From Candidatus Peregrinibacteria bacterium CG11_big_fil_rev_8_21_14_0_20_49_14 (lineage in GTDB: Bacteria > Patescibacteriota > Gracilibacteria > Peribacterales > Peribacteraceae): a stretch of DNA of 59,430 bases. Made by a program: the position numbers and the translations under genes. Positions 16,448 to 47,831 of the stretch are shown here, one piece after another. The stretch is from contig PCVP01000018.1 in the NCBI GenBank assembly GCA_002787035.1, positions 208 to 59,637 on the forward strand, written 5' to 3'. Under the pieces are notes generated by a model. It was not told the origin of the DNA, ran no database searches, and saw only the letters and a list, made by a program, of their open reading frames with translations. Each line of letters begins with the position of its first letter. Within the stretch, counting starts at the first letter, position 1.

Positions 16448-16464
16448 GGTGAGAATGGGAATGA

Positions 16465-16774
16465 GTATGATCAGATCACGTACTGAGTATGATCATTATA
16501 CGCACGATATCCGTGGGTACTCTTGCGTATGATCATCTGTGATTAAGAGTATGCTCTATTTATACATGGAATGAGTAGGCAGAAGCACTGTTCAGAGAAG
16601 TAAAAATGTTTTTTGACTTCTTTTAGGGCTCGATCAAATTTCAAATACTGAAAATACATCGATCATCCACACCCTATGATCAGGAGTGTGTATTTATCAT
16701 GAGTATGGTCATGAGTATCATCATGTTCTTCGAAATATTTCGGTGTGATCAGATCATGAGCATAGTCATGATCA
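16465..16774. promoter_or_regulatory. Cluster of six TGATCA palindromes
   Basis: TGATCA occurs at 16468, 16490, 16530, 16677, 16746 and 16769 (first base). The first four are preceded by TA, and the first two by GAGTA, so the consensus is GAGTATGATCA. Partial copies (GAGTATG, GATCA) fill the gaps. About 0.1 would be expected by chance in this length. The cluster lies directly upstream of the helix-turn-helix gene at 15938-16447 and is probably its binding array. No gene is credible in 16448-16860. Confidence 0.7.
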
Positions 16775-16860
16775 CTGTCTGCATTACTCATGCATTTACA
16801 TCGAAAGAGCATATTTTCCATTCTCAATACCGATAATCTGAAGTACGCTTGCAGCCGTAA

Positions 16861-16936
16861 AGGCGCGTAGCTCAGCTGGTAGAGCACTGGTCTCCAAAAC
16901 CAGGGGTCGCAGGTTCGAGCCCTGCCGCGCCTGCCA
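16861..16936 (+). tRNA. tRNA-Trp (CCA anticodon)
   Basis: A full cloverleaf: acceptor AGGCGCG pairs with CGCGCCT, D arm GCTC/GAGC, anticodon stem CTGGT/ACCAG with loop CTCCAAA (anticodon CCA, Trp), T arm GCAGG/CCTGC with TTCGAGC loop, discriminator G and an encoded CCA. Its 3' end is repeated twice downstream. Confidence 0.97.
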
Positions 16937-17015
16937 ATAATAACTGATAGACAGAAGGTCTCTCGGTTGATTTCGAGCTGAGGAACGAAGCCGAAAGCAA
17001 GCGATGCCCTGTGGG

Positions 17016-17059
17016 TACAAAACCGGGGGTCGTAGGTTCGAGTCCTACCGCGCCTGCCA
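17016..17059 (+). repeat. Degenerate copy of the tRNA-Trp 3' half
   Basis: From the anticodon loop remnant to the terminal CCA this stretch repeats the 3' half of the tRNA-Trp gene, with compensating changes in the T stem (GTAGG/CCTAC). There is no matching 5' half, so it is not a working tRNA. It looks like an attachment-site remnant left by integration at the tRNA 3' end. Confidence 0.75.
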
Positions 17060-17108
17060 TATCTCTAAATACCTCATTAGCGTTCTGATTACTAAGTAGG
17101 ATGAGAAG

Positions 17109-17142
17109 TTTATCCTGAGCGAGCGTAGCGAGCCGAAGGGAG
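17109..17142 (+). repeat. Intergenic palindromic repeat
   Basis: A stretch reading TTTATCCTGAGCGAGCG then TAGCGAGCCGAAGGGA contains the inverted halves CTGAGCGAG / GCGAGCCGAAG often seen as dispersed intergenic elements. It lies between two copies of the tRNA-Trp 3' end. Function unknown. Confidence 0.4.
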
Positions 17143-17159
17143 TCCTACCGCGCCTGCCA
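17140..17159 (+). repeat. Second 20-bp copy of the tRNA-Trp 3' end
   Basis: Twenty bases (GAGTCCTACCGCGCCTGCCA) match 17040-17059 exactly, 100 bases downstream of it, and match the tRNA-Trp 3' end with two changes. Taken with the copy at 17016-17059 it marks a serial integration hotspot. Bases 17160-17237 hold nothing else I can identify. Confidence 0.7.
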
Positions 17160-17237
17160 CATTGGACACATGACCTGTTTGCCTTTGCGGCACAGGGTTC
17201 GGTGAAGTCCAGTTTAATATGTTACTCTAGAATATAA

Positions 17238-17549
17238 ATGACGATCACAGCGATTATCATCGCGGCTGCCTTCTATTTTTTCCTTGGATATACCATCCTA
17301 AATGGACGACATTCAAAATCAGGGATCGGAGAAAAGCCCTTGATTTACTCAAGCGTTATTGTGCAGTTTTTCCTAAATATTAATCTGCTGCTATTTCTTG
17401 GACTCTCATTGTTTTTAGTTTTTTATGATTGGAAATTCTTACTTATTTTACTCGGTACATCATTTATTCTTGAGCCCTTCATTATTGTTCCGTTTTTGGA
17501 GAAGTTATTAGCGCTTATTTGCAACGCTTTTATCAAAAAAGGCCATTAG
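17238..17549 (+). CDS. Small hydrophobic membrane protein
   Basis: A 103-residue, very hydrophobic protein with three membrane segments (about residues 3-19, 37-62 and 68-92) and a short basic tail. I do not recognise a family. TAGAAT (17228-17233) lies just before ATG 17238. Base composition is clearly AT-richer than the genes before 16.4 kb, and it is the first gene after the repeated tRNA-Trp ends, so it is probably acquired DNA. Confidence 0.6.
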   Translation: MTITAIIIAAAFYFFLGYTILNGRHSKSGIGEKPLIYSSVIVQFFLNINLLLFLGLSLFLVFYDWKFLLILLGTSFILEPFIIVPFLEKLLALICNAFIKKGH

Positions 17550-17619
17550 CAGCACCCCTATGAAATTGCTTACTATTATAAAATATGCATGCGGCTTGAG
17601 TTGGTGAATCATAAAAGAA

Positions 17620-17793
17620 CTACAACTCCGTCTCATTACCAAGGAGTTCGGCTAAGGAATCTATCGGAGATAGTTGTGGCTTTTCCGTGAGGATTTCGTC
17701 AAGGATCTCCTGCGCTGATTTTTCTTTCTCTAGGGTTAGAAGCCGATGAAGAAACTCGTTCTGGTTGCAAGTGGTATTTGATGCAAGTTTCAT
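17620..17793 (-). CDS. Possible 57-aa small protein
   Basis: A 57-codon minus-strand frame (ATG 17793, TAG ending 17620) encodes a soluble, acidic, helical peptide beginning MKLASNTTCNQNEF and ending LAELLGNETEL. The amino-acid composition is protein-like and leucine/glutamate heptads suggest a helix. There is no strong ribosome-binding site. It sits alone in an otherwise empty region of the AT-rich patch. It could be a small antitoxin-like or regulatory peptide, but nothing proves it. Confidence 0.35.
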   Translation of the reverse strand: MKLASNTTCNQNEFLHRLLTLEKEKSAQEILDEILTEKPQLSPIDSLAELLGNETEL

Positions 17794-18129
17794 AGATGTT
17801 TTTTAACGAAGGAAAATAAAAACTTATGTAGAAGTCCACTGCGGATCTACATGGATGCTATCATTAATGATAGACTTGTCCGATGTACTCTTATGCCACA
17901 GGCATTTTTTGTGTGATTAAAGCTATGATTCGGATCACCCACTTGTGACACAAAAGTTGCTACGTTAGAGTAACTTCGCACTCAGATCACACGAGCGGTT
18001 GCTCGTATTGCCCAATTACGGAAGAAGCCGGCACTTCGTTCGGTTTCAACGTCCGTAAAAGGGCAACTTCAAGCAGTTTGTTGAGTGCGCCGGCGGAGTG
18101 CCGATTTGTACTTCTACTATCTGATGAAT
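17794..18129. other. Intergenic region with short hairpins
   Basis: No convincing gene. It contains an inverted repeat TATCATTAATGATA near 17859-17872 and a weak terminator-like hairpin on the plus strand at 17893-17910 (ATGCC, loop ACA, GGCAT, then Ts). A TACTAT hexamer at 18115-18120 probably belongs to the promoter of the next small gene. Confidence 0.45.
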
Positions 18130-18300
18130 ATGAGCCCAAGTGATGAAGAGCTCATCGAACTGTCTGATCCCAAGGTGAAGCCATCACAGGATTGGAACTG
18201 GGTCTGGATACTTCTCGCTTTCTTTTTATTTGGTCTCCTTATCTGGGGGTCTCCGCCAGAACTAGGAATGGAGAGTGTAGTGCCTAGTCCATATTTCTAA
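18130..18300 (+). CDS. Small single-pass membrane protein
   Basis: A 56-residue protein: an acidic N-terminal part (MSPSDEELIELSDPK), one membrane helix (about residues 24-41, WNWVWILLAFFLFGLLIW region) and a short outside tail. TACTAT ends 9 bases before ATG 18130, which is why I prefer it over the ATG at 18124 and the longer upstream frame. It is followed directly by another small membrane protein. Function unknown. Confidence 0.5.
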   Translation: MSPSDEELIELSDPKVKPSQDWNWVWILLAFFLFGLLIWGSPPELGMESVVPSPYF

Positions 18301-18339
18301 TTGAATTTAGCCCTAAGCTTTCATGTCTCCCAAATCATT

Positions 18340-18621
18340 ATGAAAAATTTCTCACGATGGCTTCCAACTTTGTACTCCGGAAAATGGCTGAAGAGGATTG
18401 TTTTTCTTTGCATACTCTTTCTCACAGGTTTTGCACTTATTGGAAAAATAAATATTCTTTATCCCTTCGTACGTTTTAAATGTGGACAGAGGTACTACCA
18501 GGATTGTTACGAGTGGAAATGGTTCATAGATTGGGAACCACTGGTATTATTTTTACTCTTAGTTTTTGTTGGGATTTTTGCCTGGTCTTTCTGGGATGAG
18601 TACCAAGAGAAAAAGAGATAA
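18340..18621 (+). CDS. Small two-helix membrane protein
   Basis: A 93-residue protein with two membrane segments (about residues 19-39 and 65-84) separated by a loop holding two cysteines (KCGQRYYQDCYEW), which could form a disulfide outside the cell. The start ATG 18340 follows a short gap after the previous gene; a TTG at 18301 would add 13 residues. Not recognised. Part of the row of small membrane proteins in the AT-rich patch. Confidence 0.55.
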   Translation: MKNFSRWLPTLYSGKWLKRIVFLCILFLTGFALIGKINILYPFVRFKCGQRYYQDCYEWKWFIDWEPLVLFLLLVFVGIFAWSFWDEYQEKKR

Positions 18622-18642
18622 TCATTACCGCCTCCCCCTTAC

Positions 18643-19136
18643 ATGGAAAACTTCTTCACAAATTATGCAGCCGCGACATCTTCGGGTTCTATCGTAGCAA
18701 TAGCAGTAGTGACGCTTGTTCTAATTGGGATAATTCTAGCCTACATCTGTCCTATTGTCGGTTTGTATTGGTATGCAAGATGCTGGCACGCAGGCAAAAA
18801 TATCGAAGACCTTGCGATAGAGCAAAAGGAATCAAAGCATTTAGCTGCTAAGCTTCTGCAAAAGACATGGGTGGTGTATTACGTATACGTGATGTCATGG
18901 GTAGCTTTGACTTTTTTCTATCGGTAGCTTTTGAAGCTTCTCTCTGGTTTCTACCAGAATCTTGGGGTGGATATGACGTTGAATCAGATCAATTTATATC
19001 TGCTCAAGAGGGATGGGCACGAACTATGGCGATCATTTCCAGTCTCTGCATACTTTGGTATATGTCCCTCGCGCTAAAGGCAAGAATAGCGCAGGTGAAA
19101 TCAAAAGGAGAAAAACCTGATAATTATTTCAACTGA
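18643..19136 (+). pseudogene. Membrane protein split by a -1 frameshift at T-TTT-TTC
   Basis: Two overlapping frames (18643-18927 and the frame ending 19136) join into one 164-residue protein if the ribosome slips back one base at 18912-18918, sequence T TTT TTC, a classical slippery heptamer. The zero frame stops at TAG 18925. Hairpins (23-27 with 51-55 and 26-30 with 34-38 in 189xx) lie just downstream. The joined protein has membrane segments near residues 17-40, 74-98 and 131-147. It may be a programmed frameshift, a broken gene or a homopolymer sequencing error. Family unknown. Confidence 0.55.
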
Positions 19137-19429
19137 TTTTTTTTACCAAACACTCGCAGACTCGCAAATAGCAGAATCGCTCCCACCAGATTAAACAACA
19201 TCCATATCTCCTTCGTAAGATGTGCCGGAATAAAAGGATTGAAGAGCAATGCCGTAAGACCGAAAGCCCATACCCATTCAGTCTTTTTCAATTCATACGC
19301 TTTATACGCGCTGTACGCACCTACTGCGCACACAACGACACGTAATAACATATAATACGGGTAAGGATTCGGTGCAATAGCCCACAGGAGCATCAGGGCT
19401 GCCGTTAGACGAGCGAGGAACCAGATCAT
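19124..19429 (-). CDS. DUF6804-like small membrane protein
   Basis: A 101-residue protein with four membrane segments and the pattern of DUF6804 proteins: PYPYYMLLRVVVC near residue 22, A-Y-x-A-Y-E near 40, and L-L-F-N-P-F-I-P near 61. The function of the family is not known to me. TACAAT ends 7 bases before ATG 19429, so it is probably leaderless. The 3' end overlaps the end of the frameshifted gene on the other strand by 13 bases. Confidence 0.7.
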   Translation of the reverse strand: MIWFLARLTAALMLLWAIAPNPYPYYMLLRVVVCAVGAYSAYKAYELKKTEWVWAFGLTALLFNPFIPAHLTKEIWMLFNLVGAILLFASLRVFGKKNQLK

Positions 19430-19434
19430 CTACT

Positions 19435-19662
19435 TCATTGTACCTGAATTTCCAATGCTTCTAAGTGCGTTTTCGCGTCATCCCAGTCCACACTCTCAAC
19501 CTCCTCCTGCGACATAACCAGCGCGGTAATTCCACTGACATCCACCTGTTGCTCGAATCTCGGTGAAAACTCCTCCCTTCTTTTCCGTTCCAGATACTTC
19601 AAAGCCAGCCCGCCATCGTTCTCCATTTTCTCGATAACAATCCTCCGTTGCCTCACTAACAA
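19435..19662 (-). pseudogene. C-terminal remnant of a phage terminase-small-subunit-like protein
   Basis: A 75-codon frame without a good start carries M-E-N-D-G-G-L-A-L-K-Y-L-E-R-K-R-R-E-E-F-S-P-R, the pattern (A-x-x-W/Y-L-x-R-R-x-x-E-x-F) found at the end of phage terminase small subunits and related phBC6A51-type helix-turn-helix proteins. The DNA-binding N-terminus is absent. I read it as a decayed fragment of a mobile element, in keeping with the nearby tRNA-Trp repeats. The identification is by pattern only. Confidence 0.45.
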
Positions 19663-19717
19663 GCATCGACCGCGCTGGAGCGCCGAGGGTTCGGATAGTA
19701 TCCAATAGCCCTACCAC

Positions 19718-23930: not shown

Positions 23931-24602
23931 CTACAGCAGTACGCAGCTGAGCCTGTTGACGTACCCTTCTTGCACGTGCTCGCGGTCTCCGCCGCGATAT
24001 GTCCAGTACTGTTCGGGGTGACATCGTGTGCAGTCCGAGTGTCTCTCGAAGCGGTCCGGCCGCACACCGAGATTCAACAGTTCTGCCCGTGCAACAGCCT
24101 GAAGATCGACACATTTTCCATGTATGAATTCAGCGGGGATAGTTGGCAGTTCCTCTTCGGGATTACTGAAGTCCGCGCACGCTCTGCACAGAGACGGTCC
24201 TGCGCCAACCAGTACATCCTCAGCTTCTATGGCATATTCGTTGTGAAGCATGCGAAAAAATTCCGGAATCGCTCCCGCAATGAGCCCTCGCCACCCCGCA
24301 TGAAGCAGCCCCACTACGTGCTTTTCCGGTTCGTATATTATAAAATTCTGACAGTCTGCCCAGCGAATGCACAGTGGCAAATGGGCGACGGAAGTAAGCA
24401 TGCCATCGGCACGTACCTCGGGTCCGTGTGCTTTGGTAATAACCACCGTCGTATTGCCATGTACCTGATGCAAACTCGCTCCCTCGTACCCAAAAAGCGC
24501 ATGTGCCGCACTGTCTGAGTCCACAGTGTCTTGCTTTGTGTACATACAAACGTGAAGGCGATCTTCGTACGGTTGAAGAATGTTAAACGGCTGAGAGATC
24601 AT
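23931..24602 (-). CDS. YfiH/LACC1-family protein (polyphenol oxidase / purine nucleoside phosphorylase)
   Basis: A 223-residue laccase-domain (DUF152) protein. Family members were first described as polyphenol oxidases and later as purine nucleoside phosphorylases/adenosine deaminases. Metal-binding motifs are intact: H-Q-V-H-G (about residues 45-49), A-D-C-Q (about 83-86), L-H-A-G-W-R-G (about 102-108) and G-P-S-L-C (about 138-142). ATG 24602 lies inside the end of nnrD (20-base overlap), so the two genes are probably transcribed together; a longer frame exists but would overlap nnrD much more. Confidence 0.9.
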   Translation of the reverse strand: MISQPFNILQPYEDRLHVCMYTKQDTVDSDSAAHALFGYEGASLHQVHGNTTVVITKAHGPEVRADGMLTSVAHLPLCIRWADCQNFIIYEPEKHVVGLLHAGWRGLIAGAIPEFFRMLHNEYAIEAEDVLVGAGPSLCRACADFSNPEEELPTIPAEFIHGKCVDLQAVARAELLNLGVRPDRFERHSDCTRCHPEQYWTYRGGDREHVQEGYVNRLSCVLL

Positions 24603-25371
24603 GGAAGAGCAGAGAGGGGATTCGCCGTATAATATCGGCTGTGGTGTAGGAGTATCCGACTTCTTTTGCCAGCGTGTCTCCCGCATGTTTTATGAGTGTG
24701 CTCGCAGTTGAGCATGCGTTCACATGGTCCATCCCCTGCGCCACAAGTCCTGCGATACAGCCGGCAAGTGCGTCTCCTGTTCCTCCCACAGTCAATCCCG
24801 CATTGCCTCCCTTTACTTCCGTAAGCGTGCCGTCTTGCGAGGCAATGGTGTCCGTATGCCCTTTCAGCAGTATGGTTGCTTGCGCGTTTTTCGCGCTGTC
24901 TTGCAGGGTCTCGAGTGTGACTCCCATGCGTTCCAGTTCTCCCAGATGCGGTGTGAGAATGACATGTTTGCCTCGCACCGTGTTGAGTGTGTGTTCCTGC
25001 AATGCAGTGGCATCCAGCACCAACGTACATGATGACTCCGCAATAATATCGAGTAACACTCGCATGCTTTCTTCTGTTCTTGCAATACCCGGACCCAACA
25101 CCGCGACGTCCATGGTGGCAAGCAATTCCAAAATCGGCTCTTTGTCTTCGGGGGATAATTCATTGTGTGCAAACGCATGCACTTGGAAATTAAGACTCTG
25201 TGATTTTGCCACTTCTTTGTGGCAGGCAGGCAGGCAGACATACACCAAATCCGTACCCATAGCTTCGGCGGCCAGAGCAGAGAAGAGGGGAGCTCCGTGC
25301 ATGTGTGCGGATCCTCCGACAACAGCAACCTTGCCGTTATCCCCTTTGTGAGAATGCGAATCTCGTTTCAT
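24583..25371 (-). CDS. nnrD: ADP-dependent NAD(P)H-hydrate dehydratase
   Basis: NnrD repairs hydrated NAD(P)H. The 262-residue protein is the ribokinase-like dehydratase domain alone, without the N-terminal epimerase (NnrE) domain that many bacteria have fused. Signatures: GKVAVVGGSAHMHGAP (about residues 12-27), L-G-P-G-I (about 95-99), L-T-P-H-x-G-E (about 147-153) and the N-A-G-L-T-V-G-G-T-G-D-A-L-A-G motif (about 207-221). ATG 25371 is fixed by TATCAT ending 6 bases upstream; the open frame further up overlaps the divergent gene. Confidence 0.92.
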   Translation of the reverse strand: MKRDSHSHKGDNGKVAVVGGSAHMHGAPLFSALAAEAMGTDLVYVCLPACHKEVAKSQSLNFQVHAFAHNELSPEDKEPILELLATMDVAVLGPGIARTEESMRVLLDIIAESSCTLVLDATALQEHTLNTVRGKHVILTPHLGELERMGVTLETLQDSAKNAQATILLKGHTDTIASQDGTLTEVKGGNAGLTVGGTGDALAGCIAGLVAQGMDHVNACSTASTLIKHAGDTLAKEVGYSYTTADIIRRIPSLLFHDLSAV

Positions 25372-25432
25372 ACGGTTATGATACTTCGTTTCTCTAGTTT
25401 GAGCCATTGTTGTTCTGCTACCATTGCGTGCG

Positions 25433-26746
25433 ATGCATATGAGAACCGAGCTATCTGCTGCAAAGTATTTGTTTTTCTGGGGAACCATGTTGAGCATGGT
25501 GGTTATAGGTACGGAGGCTTTTTCGTACATTCTTCTCTCCGGTACGGAATGGAAGGCATCGGTTATCGCCGCAGATCTGCGTTCCGATTCAGGAGAAAAA
25601 AATGCGGAAGAGAAAGTAGGGGATTCCGCGCTCTTCACTCCGGACGGACAAGTGCTTCATCCGTATCTTGGGTCCGTTATTCCCGACTCCGGTGCGCATG
25701 CACAGTTGCCAAACGGGTGGGACTGGCTTGCCAATTACGGCTTCGGAGACGATGCGGGACCGCTTGTTCGTAAGCGTAGTCCCGACAAAGTGGTGGTGGG
25801 AGTGTTCGGCGGTTCCGTTGCCAGACAATTCGTAACACATGGAGATGCGGATATTTTTTTGAACGAACTGAAAAAACTCCCCCAGTTTGCAGGGAAAGAA
25901 TTCATAGTCACGTTGCCCTTAAATTACGGGTACAAACAGCCGCAAGCAGCACTCACATTGCAGTATCTCCTCACGCTCGGTGCAAAGTTTGATCTCATAG
26001 TTTTACTTGATGGCTTCAATGATATCGCGATGCCCGAGCCGGAAAATTATTCGTTGGGAGTGTTTCCGTTTTATCCGCGTTCATGGAATTTGCGTATGCA
26101 AGATATAGATCACGCACCCGCCATGAGAAAAGCGATTGCACGCGTGGCGGAGTACAGAGACGAGTACGATGCAATGACGCAATACGAGAGCAAATCCCTG
26201 TTGGGAAAATTGTTTACCGCAAAGCTACTTGCTTCCATACGCCAGGAGCGTTTGGCTTCCAAAATCGCACAAGCCGAAGAGGAACTGCATTCCATCGCAG
26301 CCAACGAACAATCCGGTTACATCGTGCGCGGACCGCAGCGATATTATTCCTCACGTACGGATCTTCTCAAAGATGCTGCGTCCGTGTGGGAAGAGAGTTC
26401 ACGCCAAATGCACATGACTGCTCGTGCAAATAACATTGCCTTCCTGCATTTCTTGCAACCGAATCAATATGATCCCGGGTCGAAGCCTATGACGGCCGCA
26501 GAGAAAAAAATTGCTCTTGTTGAAAACAATCCCCAGAGTTACGGAGTCATAAACGGGTACCCGCTCCTGCGCGAGGCCGGCGAAAGATTACGACAAGACG
26601 GAGTACATTTTTACGATATGAGTATGGCTTTCGCAGACACCCAAGAAGAGTTTTATGTCGATAATTGCTGCCATATAAATCATGCGGGAAATGTGTATAT
26701 TGCACGTAAAATGGCAGAGGCGGTACTTTCCGGATTCGTGCCGTAA
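25433..26746 (+). CDS. Membrane-anchored SGNH-hydrolase-like protein, copy 1
   Basis: A 437-residue protein with an N-terminal membrane anchor (about residues 10-34) and an extracytoplasmic SGNH/GDSL-like domain: nucleophile block FGGSVA with the serine about residue 125, block III DGFND (about 190-194) and a C-terminal D-N-C-C-H carrying the Asp/His pair (about 409-413). Family substrates are ester- or acyl-modified glycans. It is the first of three tandem paralogues and shares with them NYG(F/Y), QPNQY and YPLLR motifs. TGC-TACCAT ends 8 bases before ATG 25433. Confidence 0.8.
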   Translation: MHMRTELSAAKYLFFWGTMLSMVVIGTEAFSYILLSGTEWKASVIAADLRSDSGEKNAEEKVGDSALFTPDGQVLHPYLGSVIPDSGAHAQLPNGWDWLANYGFGDDAGPLVRKRSPDKVVVGVFGGSVARQFVTHGDADIFLNELKKLPQFAGKEFIVTLPLNYGYKQPQAALTLQYLLTLGAKFDLIVLLDGFNDIAMPEPENYSLGVFPFYPRSWNLRMQDIDHAPAMRKAIARVAEYRDEYDAMTQYESKSLLGKLFTAKLLASIRQERLASKIAQAEEELHSIAANEQSGYIVRGPQRYYSSRTDLLKDAASVWEESSRQMHMTARANNIAFLHFLQPNQYDPGSKPMTAAEKKIALVENNPQSYGVINGYPLLREAGERLRQDGVHFYDMSMAFADTQEEFYVDNCCHINHAGNVYIARKMAEAVLSGFVP

Positions 26747-26786
26747 ACGACGTGCGCAGTCATTCTTTCTGCTACTATCTGTTTCC

Positions 26787-28118
26787 ATGCTTTTCAGTCC
26801 GTTATCTTCATCGCAACATGCCGGTATGCCACGCGTAAAACATCTGTGTTTTTCCGTGGTACCGGTACTTCTGATTGTCGTATCGGTGGAGATGTTTTCG
26901 TTGTTCGCACTTCAATTTTTAAACGGTATGTCACCTGCCATGAGACTCAATGCAAACGTAGTTTCTTCTTATGGTCAGGCGGGTGAAACGGGAGATCAGG
27001 CACTCGCCTCCACAGACGATCAGGTGCCGCATCCGTACATCGGTGCCGCACACCCTCCCACGACGGTGCGCAAGCCGGAAATAAGAGATCCGGATTTTCT
27101 GGAGAACTATGGATTCGGTCCTAACACAGGCCCATTTCCGCGAGAGAAAAAAGATAACGAGGCAGTCGTTGCTATTTTCGGCGGATCGGTGGCAAAACAA
27201 TTCGCACTTACCGCCCCCATGGATACACTGGCTGCAGCACTGAAGCAACTTCCGGAGTATGCCGATAAAGATATTGTGTTCACGGTGCCTTCGAATTACG
27301 GATTTAAGCAGCCGCAACAATTACTCACACTCAATTATCTGATGTCCATCGGTGCGAAGTTCGATGCGATCATAGTCATAGACGGATTTAACGATGTGGC
27401 TATGCCATTCGAAGAGGACTATACACTCAATGTGTTTCCGTTCTATCCGCGCTTCTGGAACGTGCGTATGCAGAGCCTGAACACAGCGCCTGAAATGCGT
27501 CACATAATAGGGCGCATTGGTCTTATGCAAGAGCGACAAAAGAATGCCGCACGCATCATGCAATATTCTCCGCTGCGTATCAGCATGACTGCTCAGCTTG
27601 TATGGCAACTCTACGACAAAGATTTGGAAGCGAAAATACTGGAGGATGAAAAATTGCTGTTCGAGCAGCAGGCAGACGAGCAATCCGGCTACATTGTTAC
27701 GGGTCCCAGTCGTGTGTACGACAATAGCGATCAATTCTTCGGTGACCTTGTATCCAACTGGAAAGAGAGCTCGCTACTCATGCACCAGATCGCGAAAGCC
27801 AACGGTATGCGTTACTTCCACATTCTTCAGCCTAATCAGTACGTACCGAATTCAAAGCAAATGGGACCCGCGGAAAAAGCCGTGGCTTTTCGGGAAAATC
27901 ATTATTACCGAGACGATGTCGAAATGGGATATCCGCTGTTACGGCAGGCCGGAAAAGAGCTGCGGGAGCAGGGCGTGCAATTTTACGATATGACTTTGAT
28001 ATTCGAACATGTCAATGAACAGACGTACATAGATGATTGCTGCCACCTGACAGTGTACGGATACAACCTTTTTAATGACGCCATCGCAGAGGCAATCACT
28101 TCCGATTCAAATCGATAA
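26787..28118 (+). CDS. Membrane-anchored SGNH-hydrolase-like protein, copy 2
   Basis: Second of three tandem paralogues, 443 residues. N-terminal anchor about residues 20-45, FGGSVAKQF nucleophile block near 132-140, DGFNDVAMP near 196-204, YIDDCCH near 413-419. The start is placed at ATG 26787 because the extended -10 TGC-TACTAT ends 8 bases before it, just after the stop of copy 1; the open frame before that overlaps copy 1. A shorter start at ATG 26826 (MPRVKH) cannot be excluded. It probably has its own leaderless transcript. Confidence 0.8.
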   Translation: MLFSPLSSSQHAGMPRVKHLCFSVVPVLLIVVSVEMFSLFALQFLNGMSPAMRLNANVVSSYGQAGETGDQALASTDDQVPHPYIGAAHPPTTVRKPEIRDPDFLENYGFGPNTGPFPREKKDNEAVVAIFGGSVAKQFALTAPMDTLAAALKQLPEYADKDIVFTVPSNYGFKQPQQLLTLNYLMSIGAKFDAIIVIDGFNDVAMPFEEDYTLNVFPFYPRFWNVRMQSLNTAPEMRHIIGRIGLMQERQKNAARIMQYSPLRISMTAQLVWQLYDKDLEAKILEDEKLLFEQQADEQSGYIVTGPSRVYDNSDQFFGDLVSNWKESSLLMHQIAKANGMRYFHILQPNQYVPNSKQMGPAEKAVAFRENHYYRDDVEMGYPLLRQAGKELREQGVQFYDMTLIFEHVNEQTYIDDCCHLTVYGYNLFNDAIAEAITSDSNR

Positions 28119-28130
28119 TTTCTCTCTTTC

Positions 28131-29477
28131 ATGCCTTCCCTCACTCAGCACAGCACAGAGCTTTCCAAGGCAAAACGCATCGTCTTCGGACTGGTGACAG
28201 TGGGTATTGTTTTCGGAGTGACAGAAGCATTTTCGGCGACCGCTCTCACCGTGTTGAGAAGAGGATCGAACGTTGTCGTTGCGGATATCATAAGCGGTAG
28301 CGGGTCCATTTACAGATTACATCCGTTGTTGGTTGTGGATCCGACACAAAATTCTCCCGATTCATTCAATCAAATCGTGCATCCGTACCTCGGTGCGGTG
28401 CTGGAGCCGATTGAAAAGAAAACAGTGCAGTTTGGCAGTGCGGATGACACCATGGAAAACTACGGATTCGGTCCGTATTCGGGTCCGTTTATTCATGAAT
28501 ATCAGCCCGATACCATTTCGGTTGCAGTTGTGGGAGGGTCTGTGGCAAAGCAGTTTGTGACACATGGTCATCCTGATATTCTCTTTAAAAAGTTAGCTGA
28601 ACTTCCGAAGTACCAAGGAAAGAAATTCATTGTTTCTGTGCCCACAAATTACGGATACAAACAACCGCAGCAGCTTCTTGCCATTAACTACTTACTGAGT
28701 ATCGGAGCACATTTCGATATGATTATAAATCTCGATGGCTTTAACGAAGTCGCCATGCCGTTTCCGGAAAATTACGTGCAGAATATTTCACCGTACTATC
28801 CTCGTTCCTGGAATCTGCGCATGCAAAATCTGGATCTCGCCCCCGAAATGAGACGCATTATCGGACGAGTCGGTTTTTACCGCAAAGAGCAAGATATGCT
28901 TCATGAGAAACAGAAGCACTCTCCGTTGCGCAGATTTTTCACCGCACAGTTACTATGGGAAATGTCGGATCAGAGACTGAAGAAGAAAATAGACAGCGGC
29001 CAACAGGAACTGCTCTCGCAGAAGGCCAATGAGCGTTCGGGATACATAGTTACCGGACCGGGCAGAACGTACACGGGTGATACGGATTTCCTGGACGACG
29101 TCGTTTCCGTATGGAAACAGAGTTCAGTAATGTTGAATCAAATAGCAACGGCACGAGGTATCGATTACTTCCACGCACTGCAGCCGAATCAGTACGTGGA
29201 AGGCTCCAAGCCTATGGGCCCCGAAGAGCTTGCCGCCACGGTAAATCCACAAAGTCACTTCCGGCAGGGGGCAATATCCGGTTATCCGCTTTTGCGCAGT
29301 GTCGGGCAGGAATTACGCAATGAGGGAGTGCATTTTTATGATATGACAATGGTATTTGCAGATCAGCCCCAACGGCTCTACATAGATGATTGCTGTCATA
29401 TGCTCCCTGAAGGCAGTGCGATTCTGGCAGAGAGATTGGGCGAAGCAATCGTGGCTGATCTCAGCCAAAATCCGTAA
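28131..29477 (+). CDS. Membrane-anchored SGNH-hydrolase-like protein, copy 3
   Basis: Third tandem paralogue, 448 residues. It has the same N-terminal anchor (about residues 15-40), V-G-G-S-V-A-K-Q-F nucleophile block (about 137-145), D-G-F-N-E in place of DGFND (about 201-205) and YIDDCCHM (about 418-425). The Asp-to-Glu change in block III does not touch the Asn-bearing position. It starts 12 bases after copy 2; GATAAT lies 11 bases before the ATG. The three copies differ most in their N-terminal 100 residues, suggesting divergence in targeting or substrate. Confidence 0.8.
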   Translation: MPSLTQHSTELSKAKRIVFGLVTVGIVFGVTEAFSATALTVLRRGSNVVVADIISGSGSIYRLHPLLVVDPTQNSPDSFNQIVHPYLGAVLEPIEKKTVQFGSADDTMENYGFGPYSGPFIHEYQPDTISVAVVGGSVAKQFVTHGHPDILFKKLAELPKYQGKKFIVSVPTNYGYKQPQQLLAINYLLSIGAHFDMIINLDGFNEVAMPFPENYVQNISPYYPRSWNLRMQNLDLAPEMRRIIGRVGFYRKEQDMLHEKQKHSPLRRFFTAQLLWEMSDQRLKKKIDSGQQELLSQKANERSGYIVTGPGRTYTGDTDFLDDVVSVWKQSSVMLNQIATARGIDYFHALQPNQYVEGSKPMGPEELAATVNPQSHFRQGAISGYPLLRSVGQELRNEGVHFYDMTMVFADQPQRLYIDDCCHMLPEGSAILAERLGEAIVADLSQNP

Positions 29478-29576
29478 GTAATTCCAAGGTTTTGGAGCGA
29501 AAGTGGGGTATAATGGTTTTGTCTTGAAAGAAGAACCTCCGCAACCGTCGCCCGTATCAATTCGAATACTTTCGTA

Positions 29577-30548
29577 ATGCGACTTGCTCTGCTTATTGTG
29601 GGCATTTTGGTGTCTTCCGGTTTCTTTTCGGGCGCCGAAGCGGCGTTGCTGAGCGTGACCGATGCGGAAGTGGAAGATATGAGCCATCGCGGAAAGAAGG
29701 GGTGGAAGCTTCTCAAGCGAATTAAAGCAGATATAAACAGGTCGATGATCGCCATTGTCATTATGAACAATGTGGTGAATATCGTCGGTTCCATATTGGT
29801 CGGGCAAATGGTTATCGCACTCTTCGGAAACGCAATACTTGCCGTTACAACAACCGCACTGACATTCGGAGTCATAGTCTTTTCCGAAATACTGCCGAAG
29901 AGTCTCGGCATTCATTATGCGCCCCGCATTGCTCCTGCGGTTGCTCCGGTCATATGGGTTATCACCGTTTTATTTTACCCTTTCATCGTAGTGCTGGAAG
30001 TTCTTACAAACCTTTTAAAAAAGGGAGAGAGACACATAGGAACGGAAGCGCAAATCCGTGCGTTGGTAAAAATAGGACACCGAGCGGGTCACATAGAAAG
30101 TGATGAAGGACAGCTCATTCACAGGGCGTTTATTCTCAACGACAAAACGGCAGCGGATGTTATGACCCCCCTGAAAGATATCATCGGATTGCAGAGTGAT
30201 GCGACCATTCGAGAGGCGGCGGAGAAAGTCTTTTTAAGCACGCATTCTCGGTACCCTGTCTTCGGAAATTCCATTCATGATGTGCAGGGAATCGTGATGA
30301 GTCACAATATTCTGGAATTACTTGCGGAAGGAAAAGACGATACGCCCATCATGGAGATACTCAGGGATTCTCTTGTGGTCGATGTGAACAGTCGAAGCGA
30401 TAAATTACTGATGTTGTTTCGAGACAAGCATATTCATTTGGCTGTGGTACAAGAGCACGGAAAAACTGTGGGGCTTGTGACTCTCGAAGACGTGCTCGAA
30501 GAACTGGTCGGAGAAATAGAAGATGAAACCGATGTGGAGGAGAGTTAG
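29577..30548 (+). CDS. CNNM/CorC-type membrane transporter with CBS pair
   Basis: A 323-residue protein of the hemolysin C/CNNM (DUF21-CBS) family, linked to magnesium or other divalent cation export. The DUF21 membrane domain (about residues 1-135) contains [11 protein letters not shown] (about 17-27) and I-V-F-S-E-I-L-P-K (about 99-107); the CBS pair lies at about 180-320 with V-M-T-P-L-K-D (about 194-200) and the closing [13 protein letters not shown]. The usual CorC_HlyC C-terminal domain is missing. It overlaps the convergent glycosyltransferase by 4 bases. Confidence 0.92.
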
Positions 30549-31669
30549 GTGAACCTGTGCGGAGCTGCTTTTTCCACGACGGAAGATATTTGAGAGCGAA
30601 ATTTCTCCGAAGCAAACTGTTTTGCATGTATACGAATTTCTTGAGGATCAAACGTCATCGTAGAAAATTCATCCAGTGTGTTTCGAAGAGAGTCGACGCT
30701 TTGTTGTTCGAAGAAAATGCCGGTCTTGCCTTTTTTTACCGTATCTAATGCCCCTCCTTTTCCAAGTGCGATAACCGGAGTACCGCACGCCTGTGCTTCC
30801 AACGGCGCGACTCCCGCATCTTCAAGTTGCGGGAAAAGAAACGCTTTTGCATATCCGTACAAATCGGGAAGCAGAGCATCGGGAACGTATCCCAACAGTT
30901 CCACAGTCGGACCTGCCATTGCACTGAGTCGTGAAAAATCTTGTCCCGTTCCCGCAATTTTTAATGGGATGCCCAGAGCATTCGCTGTGTCTATGAGCAG
31001 GTCAAACCGCTTATACGGCACCAGTCTTCCCAGCGCCAAGAAGTACTCTTTTCTCTCGGATTGCTTGCGTACGGGTGCACTGAACAAATGCCGGCTCACC
31101 GGCGGATATACCACATGACTTTTTCGCCCGTAAATTCGTTCTATGCGCTCTTGCACGGTGGTGGAATTGGCCAAAAATACATCGGTGCGATTTGCAGTCG
31201 TAAGGTCCCACCTGCGGAGTTTTCTCAGTTGGCCGCGCACTGTTTTTTGCATGCGCTTGGGTATGCGAAAATCTTGCAGGTACTCATTTTCCATTTCCCA
31301 TGCGTAACGCATGGGCGTGTGGCAGTAACAGATGTGTACCGCCGTAGGTGGCACAATAATACCTTTGGCTACCGCATGCGAAGAGCTGATCACCACATCA
31401 AATTCCCTCAGGTCTATTTGTTCCATGGCTCGCGGCATAAGCGGAAGAAGCACTTTGTGATTTCCGCACAGCGTATAGAGACGTTGCAAAGAGGTTGTAC
31501 GAATATCTGCATTATCCAGAGGACCAAGTTTCCCGTGATTTGCTATGCTGGTGTACAGCGGTGCGTCCGGCCACAGTGCACAGAACTCAGCTATGACATG
31601 TTCTGCGCCCCCGAAAGTGGGGAGCCAGTCTGCTACGATTGCAATGCGAGGAGTAGAGCGGTGAGTCAC
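30545..31669 (-). CDS. GT4-family glycosyltransferase
   Basis: A 374-residue GT-B glycosyltransferase that should move a sugar from a nucleotide donor to a surface glycan or lipid carrier. Visible are F-G-G-A-E (about residues 20-24) in the acceptor domain and the GT4 donor motifs L-G-R-L-V-P-Y-K-R (about 215-223) and [17 protein letters not shown] (about 281-297). It resembles mannosyltransferases such as WbaZ. The start is GTG 31669: TATGAT ends 6 bases before it; the frame upstream has no likely start. Confidence 0.88.
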
Positions 31670-31740
31670 CGTGGCATCATACCTTCTTTGCTCGCATATC
31701 TCGATGTTCCTGCGCACCTGCACTATTATGCCTTGGCCCT

Positions 31741-40354: not shown

Positions 40355-41304
40355 TGTATACATGAATTCTAATCAATAGCTTTGCATCACTTCTTGTGGT
40401 GTTTGCATTTCAATACCCATATGAGGTCTCTCTGTATTGTAGAAATGAACGTAGTCTGAGATAGATTTGGAATAAGCTTCTAATGTCTTTGGAACCCTTT
40501 GCAGACACTCTTCTTGAAGAGTGCGATTGAATCTTTCCAGATGCCCATTCTCCGTTGGTGACCGTATGTGTGTATGTCGATGCTGGATGTCATGTGCTTT
40601 GAGTTGTTTTTGAAGTGTTTCGAGAACTCCGGACCATGATCGGATTGTAGTAACTGAAGATGGAATGGAAATTGTGGTTGAGCTCTTTGTACAACATCCC
40701 AGCTGCATTCAGCACTAATACGAAGACAAGGAAATGCATATGCCCAACGCGAACAGACATCAATCATGGTGTATATATACAATCGATCATCATGTGCCCC
40801 ATCATGGATAGTATCAATTTCTACGAGAATACCTGGTTTCTCAGGCAATGGGCGTGGTTCGTACTGATGCCACTTCTTCCACTTGCTGTACCGTGTCATG
40901 CCGTTTCTCCTCAGTACACGTTTGATGCTTGAGAGACTAACGACGTAACCATCCTTCTGTAGTAGGTGGTGTAATACTTCAGCACAGCGACGATGTTTGA
41001 TGCGGTAATCCAAGATCAGCTGGATCATTGCAGGGGAGAGTTGCTTAGGATGTGCATGTGGTCTGGAGCTCTTGGTAGGAATGGTATGACCTATATTGTG
41101 GGTCTTAGCATAATTCACCCAACGCACGACGGTGCTCTGGTTAAACCCGGTATGTCTGGCTACTTGACGGGTGCTCCAGCCCTCTTTGAGAACCAGATTT
41201 GCTGCCTGTAGACGTATACGAGGAAGATGAGGATTTTGGGTATATGGCATGTTCATACCTTAGCGGGGGGGGGTGATGCGAAGGTATTGAACCATTACAA
41301 TACA
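40355..41304 (-). mobile_element. IS481-like insertion sequence
   Basis: About 950 bp containing one transposase gene. Ends beginning TGTAT on both sides (40355 inward, and 41304 inward on the other strand) are imperfectly matched, as expected for a family whose ends start TGT. I see no clear target duplication, so exact boundaries are tentative. A run of nine or more Gs lies just before the transposase start (about 41265-41274). Confidence 0.6.
40373..41256 (-). pseudogene. Transposase (DDE, IS481-like), frame-split
   Basis: An N-terminal helix-turn-helix (about residues 10-45), then a DDE integrase core: first Asp in V-E-I-D-T-I-H-D (about residue 145), second in S-D-H-G-P-E-F (about 203), and the Glu in N-G-H-L-E-R-F-N-R-T-L. 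The second Asp and the Glu are in different frames: the frame shifts by -1 near 40595-40615, around C-AAA-AAC. Joined, the protein is about 293 residues, with the order and spacing of an intact enzyme. It may be decayed or may need ribosomal slippage. Confidence 0.75.
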
Positions 41305-45272: not shown

Positions 45273-46373
45273 CTACAGTAATTTCCGTATTGTCTCCGCA
45301 AGACTCTCGGCGGTAATACGGTGTCCTTTCAGGCTCAAATGCGGGTCGTTCTTCAGGTAGAGAGGGTCTGTATCGGGATCGGATTTTTCGAAGACCGTAC
45401 GCAGATTCAGGATGTGAAATCCGTCTTTGCGCAGAATGGAGTCTGTCATACGTAGCAGCCCGTGAACTTCCCAGTACTCCTTCGGAAATTCTTGCTTCGC
45501 TATGTATTCCTCACGCCAGTTGTTTTGTATTTCCAGTGCGCCGGGCATAAGGGCAACGAGCAGCGTTGCACCGTCTGTTTCCACATCCGTACGCAGGGTT
45601 TTTATCAGTGCTCTGAGTACTTGCATTCTGCCTTCTCCCAGCACATCGTACTGACCCTGCCTGGTGTACCAGTAGTAATCTCCAAGTGTCTCCGCGGCCG
45701 TTTTGGAGTCCGTGTTTTGCTTGCGCAAACCGTGGTACAAGTGTCGCGCAAGTGTGCTGTGTTTAAGCACCTTACACTTCCATGCGCAGGGGGGAGGAGG
45801 TTCCACCCAAATGTCTGTGAGCACCAAGTCGTTGCCTGCCGGCTCGAGAGTGTACGGGCCTTCCATGGGAAGCAGATCATTCTCGGGGAACAGTACGTGC
45901 ACCACGATGTCCGGATGAAAATCTCGGCCGATAGTACGGTAGTACAGCAGAGCAAGTGCGGGGTTCGAACCCCCCACGGCAAGTGCGCGTGTAGTCACGT
46001 TCTTATGCAGGGCATCTGCAAGGAGGGCTGCGGACTGCTCCACAAAGCGATCCTGCTCTTGCACTTGTTTCGCTTCCACAAAAGAATCACCCAAAAACAG
46101 AATGCGCAGTTCGTCTTCCGCTTTCGGTTCCGCAGGCATTTCTGGTCCGCGGAATCCCAGCGAATTCGTGCGTATGGAAGTGGTGTACTCCTCCTTGCGA
46201 ATAGTCCACTCCGCATTCGGAGGATTCACAAAGCGCAACGTGTCACTGAATACTCTGCCTTTATCTCCGCTTTCGGAAATTATGCTCCATGTTATTTCCG
46301 CCACCGCCAAAGTTCCCGCGACAGACAGCACGGTCAGCAGCACATTGGCAGAGAGACGTCGCAAAGATTTCAT
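45273..46373 (-). CDS. Membrane-anchored SGNH/GDSL hydrolase
   Basis: A 366-residue protein with an N-terminal membrane anchor (about residues 9-31) and an outside SGNH domain: F-L-G-D-S-F-V (about 92-98, nucleophile Ser), G-G-S-N-P-A (about 133-138, block II), F-P-E-N-D (about 162-166, block III) and D-P-H-L-S-x-x-G-H (about 344-352, Asp/His). Probably an esterase acting on an acylated glycan. It begins 3 bases after the gatA stop, so it is likely co-transcribed with gatC-gatA. It is of a different SGNH subgroup from the triplet at 25-29 kb. Confidence 0.88.
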   Translation of the reverse strand: MKSLRRLSANVLLTVLSVAGTLAVAEITWSIISESGDKGRVFSDTLRFVNPPNAEWTIRKEEYTTSIRTNSLGFRGPEMPAEPKAEDELRILFLGDSFVEAKQVQEQDRFVEQSAALLADALHKNVTTRALAVGGSNPALALLYYRTIGRDFHPDIVVHVLFPENDLLPMEGPYTLEPAGNDLVLTDIWVEPPPPCAWKCKVLKHSTLARHLYHGLRKQNTDSKTAAETLGDYYWYTRQGQYDVLGEGRMQVLRALIKTLRTDVETDGATLLVALMPGALEIQNNWREEYIAKQEFPKEYWEVHGLLRMTDSILRKDGFHILNLRTVFEKSDPDTDPLYLKNDPHLSLKGHRITAESLAETIRKLL

Positions 46374-46376
46374 GGT

Positions 46377-47831
46377 TTAGAGAGAAGGTTTTGCCGTATG
46401 CCACGTCGTTGCTTGCTCGTAGGCATGTGCGATTTTCAGAACGTTTTCTTCCTGCCACTGTGGCCCCATTATCTGCAGTCCTATGGGGAGATGTTCTTTT
46501 GAAAATCCGCACGGTACGGACAGCGCGGGAATACCTGCCATAACCTGAGAGTCGAGGAAAATATCTTCCAGATACATGGCAACGGGGTCATTTTCGTGCG
46601 CACCTACGGTGAAAGCGGGGTTCGGAGCAACGGGTGCGATAATAGCATCCACACTTTTAAATGCCGTCGTGAAGTCCTGCAAAATCAACGTACGTACTTT
46701 CTGCGCTTGTCTGTAGTACGCGTCGAAGTACCCGGCAGAGAGCGCGTACGTCCCTATCATGATTCTTCGTTTTACTTCCGGTCCGAATCCGTCACTGCGG
46801 ACATCTTTGTAGTACTCCACAAGGTTCTCTGCGTTCTCGACGGTGTGGCCGTAGCGTATGCCATCGAACCTTGCCATATTCGAACTCACCTCGGACGGAC
46901 AAATAATGTAGTAGGTCGGTGTGGCATAGGCGGTATGCGGTAATGATATTTCTTCCACGGTCGCACCGAGGCTTTCAAACACTTCGGTTGTCGCACGTAC
47001 TGCCGCTTCCGTTTCCGCGTGCATGCCGTCTATGAAGTACTCCTTTGGAAGGCCGAGTTTCATACCCTTGATATTTCCCGTAAGGGCGGCACGGTAGTCT
47101 GGGACCGGTACGTCCGCTGTGGTGGCATCCAGAGGGTCTTTTCCCGCTATCGCTCCGAGCACAATGGCTATGTCTTCTATGCTTTTGCAGAGAGGACCGA
47201 TGGTATCGAGTGAGCTTGCCATACTCATGACGCCGTAACGGCTCGTGCGACCGTACGTCACTCGCAATCCGGTGCAACCGCAGAAGCTCGCAGGCTGTCG
47301 TATGGAGCCTCCCGTGTCCGTACCGAGAGCAAACAGACACTCATCCGCAGCGACTCCCGCGGCACTTCCGCCGGAAGAACCTCCCGCAACTCGTGAGGTA
47401 TCCCACGGACATCGCGTCGTGCCGTAACACGATGTTTCGGTACTTGCTCCCATGGTAAATTCGTCGGTGTTGCTCTTGCCGATACTTATGGCACCGGAAG
47501 CTTTAAGTCGTGCCGTAGTGGTGGAGTCGAACGGCGGCACGTAATCCTTCGCGCGCAGAATGTTACTGCATGCCGTGGTAGGAATTCCCTTCTCGCAGTA
47601 CACATCTTTGGTGAGGTACGGAATGCCCGCAAGCGGGTGTGAAAAATCACCTGCCGAATCTATCTTTTTGGCTTCATTCAGGGCTCTTTCAAAATTTTTG
47701 TAGACCACTGCATTCACCGTGGGATCCACGGACTCAATACGGTCTATGCACGCTTGCACGAGTTCGCTGCTCGAACATTGCTTCGTGCGAAGTTTGTCGT
47801 GTGCCTGCGCGATGGTAAGAGTGTTACCCAT
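46377..47831 (-). CDS. gatA: Asp-tRNA(Asn)/Glu-tRNA(Gln) amidotransferase subunit A
   Basis: GatA is the amidase subunit that frees ammonia from glutamine so that GatCAB can convert mischarged Glu-tRNA(Gln) and Asp-tRNA(Asn). The 484-residue protein has the amidase signature with the Ser-cisSer-Lys set: lysine in Y-L-T-K-D (about residue 75) and G-G-S-S-G-G-S-A-A (about 150-158). Length is normal. It overlaps gatC by 8 bases, and gatB is not in this window. Confidence 0.97.
   Translation of the reverse strand: MGNTLTIAQAHDKLRTKQCSSSELVQACIDRIESVDPTVNAVVYKNFERALNEAKKIDSAGDFSHPLAGIPYLTKDVYCEKGIPTTACSNILRAKDYVPPFDSTTTARLKASGAISIGKSNTDEFTMGASTETSCYGTTRCPWDTSRVAGGSSGGSAAGVAADECLFALGTDTGGSIRQPASFCGCTGLRVTYGRTSRYGVMSMASSLDTIGPLCKSIEDIAIVLGAIAGKDPLDATTADVPVPDYRAALTGNIKGMKLGLPKEYFIDGMHAETEAAVRATTEVFESLGATVEEISLPHTAYATPTYYIICPSEVSSNMARFDGIRYGHTVENAENLVEYYKDVRSDGFGPEVKRRIMIGTYALSAGYFDAYYRQAQKVRTLILQDFTTAFKSVDAIIAPVAPNPAFTVGAHENDPVAMYLEDIFLDSQVMAGIPALSVPCGFSKEHLPIGLQIMGPQWQEENVLKIAHAYEQATTWHTAKPSL

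Follow-up and report, generated by a model that had tools for sequence, protein, structure and literature searches.

In textbook SGNH enzymes, the aspartate of the last catalytic block (block V) stands three residues before the histidine (DxxH). The canonical arrangement of the catalytic residues on loops of the core has been described, as have AlgX and AlgJ, which have a permuted order, a tyrosine for the block III asparagine and a DxH motif (PMC9487903). CgnD, the crocagin leader-peptide hydrolase that releases the crocagin core, uses the triad Ser79-Asp325-His328, is a very slow enzyme even with its own substrate, and is encoded in the same gene cluster as the carbamoyltransferase CgnI (PMC10070186). 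The GDSL-like protein SxtL of the saxitoxin clusters is likewise encoded together with a carbamoyltransferase, SxtI, and its proposed function is the removal of the carbamoyl group (PMC3037375). Here, we compare these systems with three tandem genes for SGNH-like proteins of Candidatus Peregrinibacteria bacterium CG11_big_fil_rev_8_21_14_0_20_49_14 (Peribacterales, a branch of the candidate phyla radiation), whose genome of 1.44 Mb is assembled in 46 contigs. The genes lie in a stretch of 59,430 nucleotides of contig PCVP01000018.1, which was analysed as a whole and is called the window below. They probably encode three diverged, membrane-anchored, extracytoplasmic SGNH serine enzymes that act as esterases or transferases on an ester of an envelope or secreted glycan.

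A cross-phylum family of SGNH-like proteins

The three long open reading frames follow each other on the plus strand and share 44-48% identity in pairwise comparison, in agreement with the original prediction of three neighbouring paralogues. Copy 1 (25433..26746) encodes 437 amino acids from the ATG at 25433, with an in-frame TTG at 25424, and the codon of its predicted nucleophilic serine is at 25814-25816. Copy 2 (26826..28118) most likely starts with the ATG at 26826, the mechanical open reading frame opening at 26682, inside copy 1. Copy 3 (28131..29477), with 448 amino acids, was used for the structure model, and its residue numbers are used throughout. The motifs DGFN and D-x-C-C-H, which had been proposed to be common to all three proteins, are indeed present in each of them, the latter as D-N-C-C-H in copy 1 (26660-26674), D-D-C-C-H in copy 2 (28032-28046) and Asp419-Asp420-Cys421-Cys422-His423 in copy 3 (29385..29399). 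The third proposed motif, FGGS, is found in copies 1 and 2 only, since copy 3 has VGGS.

Scanning 84,980 species genomes with two short peptide patterns, we confirmed at least 217 relatives and kept 80. They come from Planctomycetota, Acidobacteriota, Myxococcota, Pseudomonadota, Thermodesulfobacteriota, Bacteroidota, Verrucomicrobiota and several candidate phyla. A profile built on 11 homologues matched the relatives in these outside loci mostly at E values of 1e-93 to 1e-172, which, together with the near-invariant motif residues, is a likeness far above chance. The residues G135, G136, S137, G203, N205, D419 and H423 are invariant or nearly so among 78-93 relatives, and the conserved set of the 93 sequences comprises HPY(L)G between the transmembrane helix and the core, GGS, G-Y-K-Q-P-Q, DGFN(E), W328, HFLQPNQY and Y-x-D-x-C-C-H...G. 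Ser137 was found in 92 of the 93 sequences, Gly175 in 90, Asn205 in all, and Asp419 and His423 in 91 each. The orthologues thus keep the putative catalytic residues, a check that had been proposed for these proteins, and this conservation supports the reading of the family as catalytic SGNH proteins. The only sequence without Ser137 is a degenerate second tandem copy in a planctomycete (locus L054, 11292-12614), which has GGA instead of GGS, lacks D-x-C-C-H and is apparently inactivated, an intact paralogue lying beside it. In nearly all sequences, the aspartate stands four residues before the histidine (D-x-x-x-H); the three-residue spacing occurs in loci L015 and L077.

None of the three copies was matched by an NCBIfam model. 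With Pfam, the triplet gave no GDSL match, and only a sub-threshold ALGX match to the last 60 residues of copy 3 (E 0.14). Weak Pfam matches were obtained among 78 relatives to ALGX (13 proteins, best E 5.6e-5), Lipase_GDSL_2 (11 proteins, best E 5.5e-6) and DUF459 (a single protein, E 0.16), and the PDB, when searched with sequence profiles of 11 and of 78 rows, gave nothing meaningful. The triplet belongs to a real SGNH family that crosses phyla and has neither a name nor a curated model.

The triplet itself is a tandem duplication that occurred inside the host lineage, i.e. a lineage-specific expansion. The three copies are monophyletic in a quick tree (98 in the Shimodaira-Hasegawa-like approximate likelihood ratio test, SH-aLRT), and among 65 sampled genomes of the host's taxonomic family, 11 carry the gene, with three copies in the host only and two in tandem in one other genome. 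Strong selection, as originally suggested, may have driven the expansion; the copies are too diverged for a dN/dS estimate, and a search for a close strain with the triplet found none. A search for further copies, which had also been suggested, revealed no other close copy in the host genome; the next match (E 0.002) was at 46527-46664 of another contig, C27. It belongs to a different SGNH-type membrane protein (locus L006, 160-1653) that has D-S-C-C-H in its last block and lacks the KQPQ and HFLQPNQY motifs. Therefore, the double-cysteine block V may predate the family or may have arisen twice.

Predicted fold, topology and closest solved structures

The AlphaFold2 model of copy 3, made with an alignment of 78 relatives, reached a predicted local distance difference test score (pLDDT) of 89.4 and a predicted template modelling score (pTM) of 0.87. 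It shows a transmembrane helix within residues 13-43 and an SGNH domain at about 80-448 with a helical insertion at about 210-310. The predicted fold of the domain is the three-layer alpha/beta/alpha SGNH fold, and the best matches among solved structures were SGNH/GDSL hydrolases and transferases. The predicted nucleophile Ser137 of block I (28539..28541) opens helix 137-144 right after the first core strand (128-135). The residues predicted to form the oxyanion hole are Gly175 of block II (28653..28655), after which comes the YKQPQ family motif, and Asn205 in the DGFN sequence of block III (28743..28745), directly after the third strand (197-202). Asp419 and His423 of block V lie in the loop just before the last, C-terminal helix (426-446). 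The placement of Ser137, Asn205 and Asp419/His423 corresponds to that described for SGNH enzymes (PMC9487903) and supports the assignment. The original prediction of SGNH-like proteins is thus backed by the fold model and by the weak, consistent GDSL and ALGX matches of the relatives, and the placement of the motif residues on the expected loops of a confident model did not refute it.

A single transmembrane helix is present at the N-terminus of each copy. Of the 78 relatives, 77 have a strongly hydrophobic N-terminal segment that reaches the threshold used or comes close to it. Lysine and arginine are more frequent on the N-terminal side of this segment in 52 of these 77 proteins and on the C-terminal side in 12, which favours an extracytoplasmic catalytic domain; in the copies of the window the difference is small, and in copy 1 both sides are equal.

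The closest solved structure is CgnD (PDB 8a2n; Z 21.8, root mean square deviation 3.8, 268 of 299 residues aligned), in agreement with Foldseek, and the runner-up reached Z 15.8 over 191 residues. CgnD shares with copy 3 the SGNH fold, the overall architecture and the order of the catalytic residues, with Ser first and Asp/His last. The two proteins are, however, only 16% identical, CgnD has DxxH instead of D-x-x-x-H, and its substrate is a modified precursor peptide. GDSL/SGNH carbohydrate esterases (AlAXEase 7ddy, Axe2, EstL5) have the same core fold, matched at Z 14-17 over about 190 residues, and the same four catalytic blocks, but their solved chains of about 200-220 residues lack the N-terminal transmembrane helix and the long helical insertion, and the spacing in their block V is different. 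The peptidoglycan O-acetyltransferase PatB (DUF459) resembles copy 3 in its SGNH domain (8tlb; Z 13.6 over 182 residues); a DUF459 match was nevertheless limited to the one relative mentioned above, and no MBOAT gene adjoins the triplet. AlgX and AlgJ are linked to the family by the weak ALGX matches at the C-terminal end, whereas in the family Ser137 precedes Asp419/His423, Asn205 is invariant and block V reads D-x-x-x-H. We rejected membership in the AlgX/AlgJ family, as the order is not permuted and block III has no tyrosine. AlgX and PatB had been suggested as the proteins to compare with, but CgnD is nearer by a wide margin. Among viral structures, the matches were limited to tail and esterase proteins of a general SGNH type.

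Possible substrates and partner enzymes

In the mechanism we propose, Ser137 would attack the carbonyl of an ester after activation by His423, itself held by Asp419, and the oxyanion hole would be formed by the amide of the serine together with Gly175 and Asn205. The acyl-enzyme would then be resolved by water, if the protein is a hydrolase, or by an acceptor hydroxyl, if it is a transferase. The most likely substrate would be an O-acyl ester, or a similar one, carried by a glycan or glycolipid that is secreted or belongs to the envelope, and the three tandem-duplicated copies may differ in the acceptor. Acyl editing of a surface glycan, as originally suggested, is plausible. The glycan reading draws on a convergent gene for a GT4-type glycosyltransferase (30545..31723, minus strand) two genes from the triplet and on three other Peribacterales genomes (G011, G012 and G044), where GT4 enzymes and a second GDSL/AlgX-like protein are encoded around the family gene and an MBOAT gene is no more than about 6 kb away.

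Several points weigh against this reading. Catalysis is proposed from sequence and a model, and the substrate from gene context. The aspartate is at position -4 from the histidine instead of the canonical -3. The 115 immediate neighbours of family genes across phyla are highly diverse in a Pfam tally and include no dominant partner, so that the term 'glycan' reflects a minority of contexts; the other Peribacterales neighbours are RNase J-type nucleases, an ABC-2 transporter, methyltransferases and housekeeping genes. Furthermore, CgnD, the closest solved relative, acts on a peptide and not on a glycan ester.

An alternative, which we regard as unlikely but not negligible, is that the family is a partner of O-carbamoylation, i.e. 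that it removes, transfers or proofreads carbamoyl esters made by NodU-type O-carbamoyltransferases, or trims the carbamoylated product. SxtL with SxtI and CgnD with CgnI would be precedents by analogy for a GDSL protein encoded with a carbamoyltransferase, SxtL being compared by its description only. Of the 80 outside loci, 10 have NodU and/or SxtJ in the vicinity of the family gene, and nine of these have NodU (within about 6 kb and often directly adjacent), compared to about 0.25 expected by chance over the 80 loci (0.09 over 30 genomes), as calculated from genome sizes and NodU counts. A cassette of the SGNH family gene, a NodU-type carbamoyltransferase and an SxtJ-type membrane protein recurs across phyla (L030, L058, L059, L060, L087; L056, L069, L091), and that of Desulfamplus includes a second GDSL protein. 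At the level of whole genomes, PF02543 was present in all of 30 outside genomes, strongly in 28, and in 3 of 14 control genomes; the 30 were, however, hand-picked and include every NodU-adjacent case. In the host's family, all 11 SGNH-positive genomes have PF02543 versus 28 of the 54 negative ones (n=65; Fisher p 0.002, at the genus level p 0.03), clade structure being crudely controlled. In genus g27, NodU is confined to the SGNH-positive genome. When the genome G115 (locus L120) is compared with two others of its genus, G051 and G026, the SGNH family gene is present in G115 only, and so is NodU, the two being on different contigs.

This evidence is offset by the absence of NodU beside the triplet and in seven further neighbourhoods that were read in Peribacterales, the copies of the host being on other contigs. 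In addition, MBOAT co-occurs with the family gene too (7 of 8 SGNH-positive versus 14 of 49 Peribacterales genomes of a first sample; p 0.003), so that a rich repertoire of glycans may be what the signal reflects, and NodU is expected to be cytoplasmic, with the SGNH domain outside. In the literature searched, we found nothing relevant on SGNH proteins with SxtJ, on SGNH proteins with carbamoyltransferases and glycans, or on GDSL proteins in Peregrinibacteria. We are slightly more doubtful still about the fuller version, in which this unnamed, cross-phylum and membrane-anchored family would work with NodU and hydrolyse or transfer the carbamoyl esters of glycans that are secreted or belong to the envelope; the cysteine pair of the active-site loop would be dispensable, and our organism would have a set of three enzymes of differing specificity.

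The family could also be the SGNH half of an MBOAT-SGNH acyltransferase pair of the PatA/PatB or AlgI/AlgJ/AlgX type, which we consider improbable. The single transmembrane helix with a predicted extracytoplasmic SGNH domain would fit such a pair, as would the MBOAT genes of the positive Peribacterales. The only MBOAT match in the host genome is, however, on another contig, a family-positive genome that is 97% complete (G032) has none, and the permuted order, block III tyrosine and DxH of AlgX/AlgJ are unlike the family. No MBOAT was found in the 80 outside loci by phmmer with one MBOAT query from the candidate phyla radiation, which weakens the partnership as a default reading.

A CgnD-like role for the family, i.e. 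the cleavage of a peptide or lipopeptide that carries modifications, is very improbable: the structural match stands well apart from the next one, but no sequence-profile match to CgnD was obtained at E values up to 10, a common fold does not establish a common substrate, and CgnD itself is very slow.

The two cysteines between Asp and His, to which the original prediction had drawn attention, are present in all three copies. By sequence, however, the pair is a common family-wide feature and not peculiar to the triplet, as Cys421 occurs in 83 and Cys422 in 88 of the 93 relatives. In G011, G012 and G044, it is replaced by Ile-Gly or Val-Gly with Ser, Asp and His kept, and some other relatives lack one of the two cysteines; the pair is thus characteristic but dispensable, and the proposed redox sensitivity of the active site is unsupported. 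A redox-switched esterase, in which a vicinal disulfide of the two cysteines would shift the Asp/His loop and turn the enzyme on and off, is hardly to be expected: the pair adjoins the predicted catalytic histidine in most relatives, and copies 1 and 3 hold no further cysteine, so that an intramolecular disulfide there could only be vicinal, but the triad persists in those three relatives, the literature searched yielded no SGNH enzyme that has such a disulfide, and the AlphaFold2 model is silent on the redox state.

Gene layout, neighbours and meaning

The gaps between the genes are about 79 nt (copy 1 to copy 2) and 12 nt (copy 2 stop to copy 3 start), and a promoter scan detected no sigma-70-like site on the plus strand in 25200-29700, although the sigma-70 consensus may not be that of the host lineage. 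This layout resembles an operon, and the three copies are probably made from one transcript, contrary to the earlier suggestion that each has its own promoter.

Upstream, a divergent gene (24583..25638, minus strand; Pfam Carb_kinase E 3e-48) encodes an NAD(P)H-hydrate dehydratase, which is a neighbour outside the SGNH system; its listed start overlaps copy 1, and the true start is probably near 25407. Downstream, a CNNM/CorC-type membrane protein with CBS domains (29577..30548, plus strand) precedes the GT4-type glycosyltransferase gene. Elsewhere in the window, a separate GDSL/AlgX-like protein (45273-46373, minus strand; ALGX E 2e-9, GDSL_2 E 8e-7) is encoded next to an amidase gene, and proteins related to it adjoin the family gene in G011, G012 and G044. 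An IS481-like transposase with an rve integrase core is encoded at 40480-41256 (minus strand), and the region 16450-19700 has few long open reading frames, a lower GC content and, as its sole Rfam match, a tRNA-Trp (16861-16936).

The triplet alone is a modest finding, one enzyme type duplicated within a lineage. The main weight lies on the wide unnamed family, which occurs in many phyla, has intact catalytic residues by sequence and is named by no curated model, and on its association with carbamoyltransferases. If the link to NodU is true, it would provide a testable function for these orphan enzymes and would hint that products carbamoylated at the surface or secreted in carbamoylated form are commoner than thought, streamlined candidate-phyla bacteria included.

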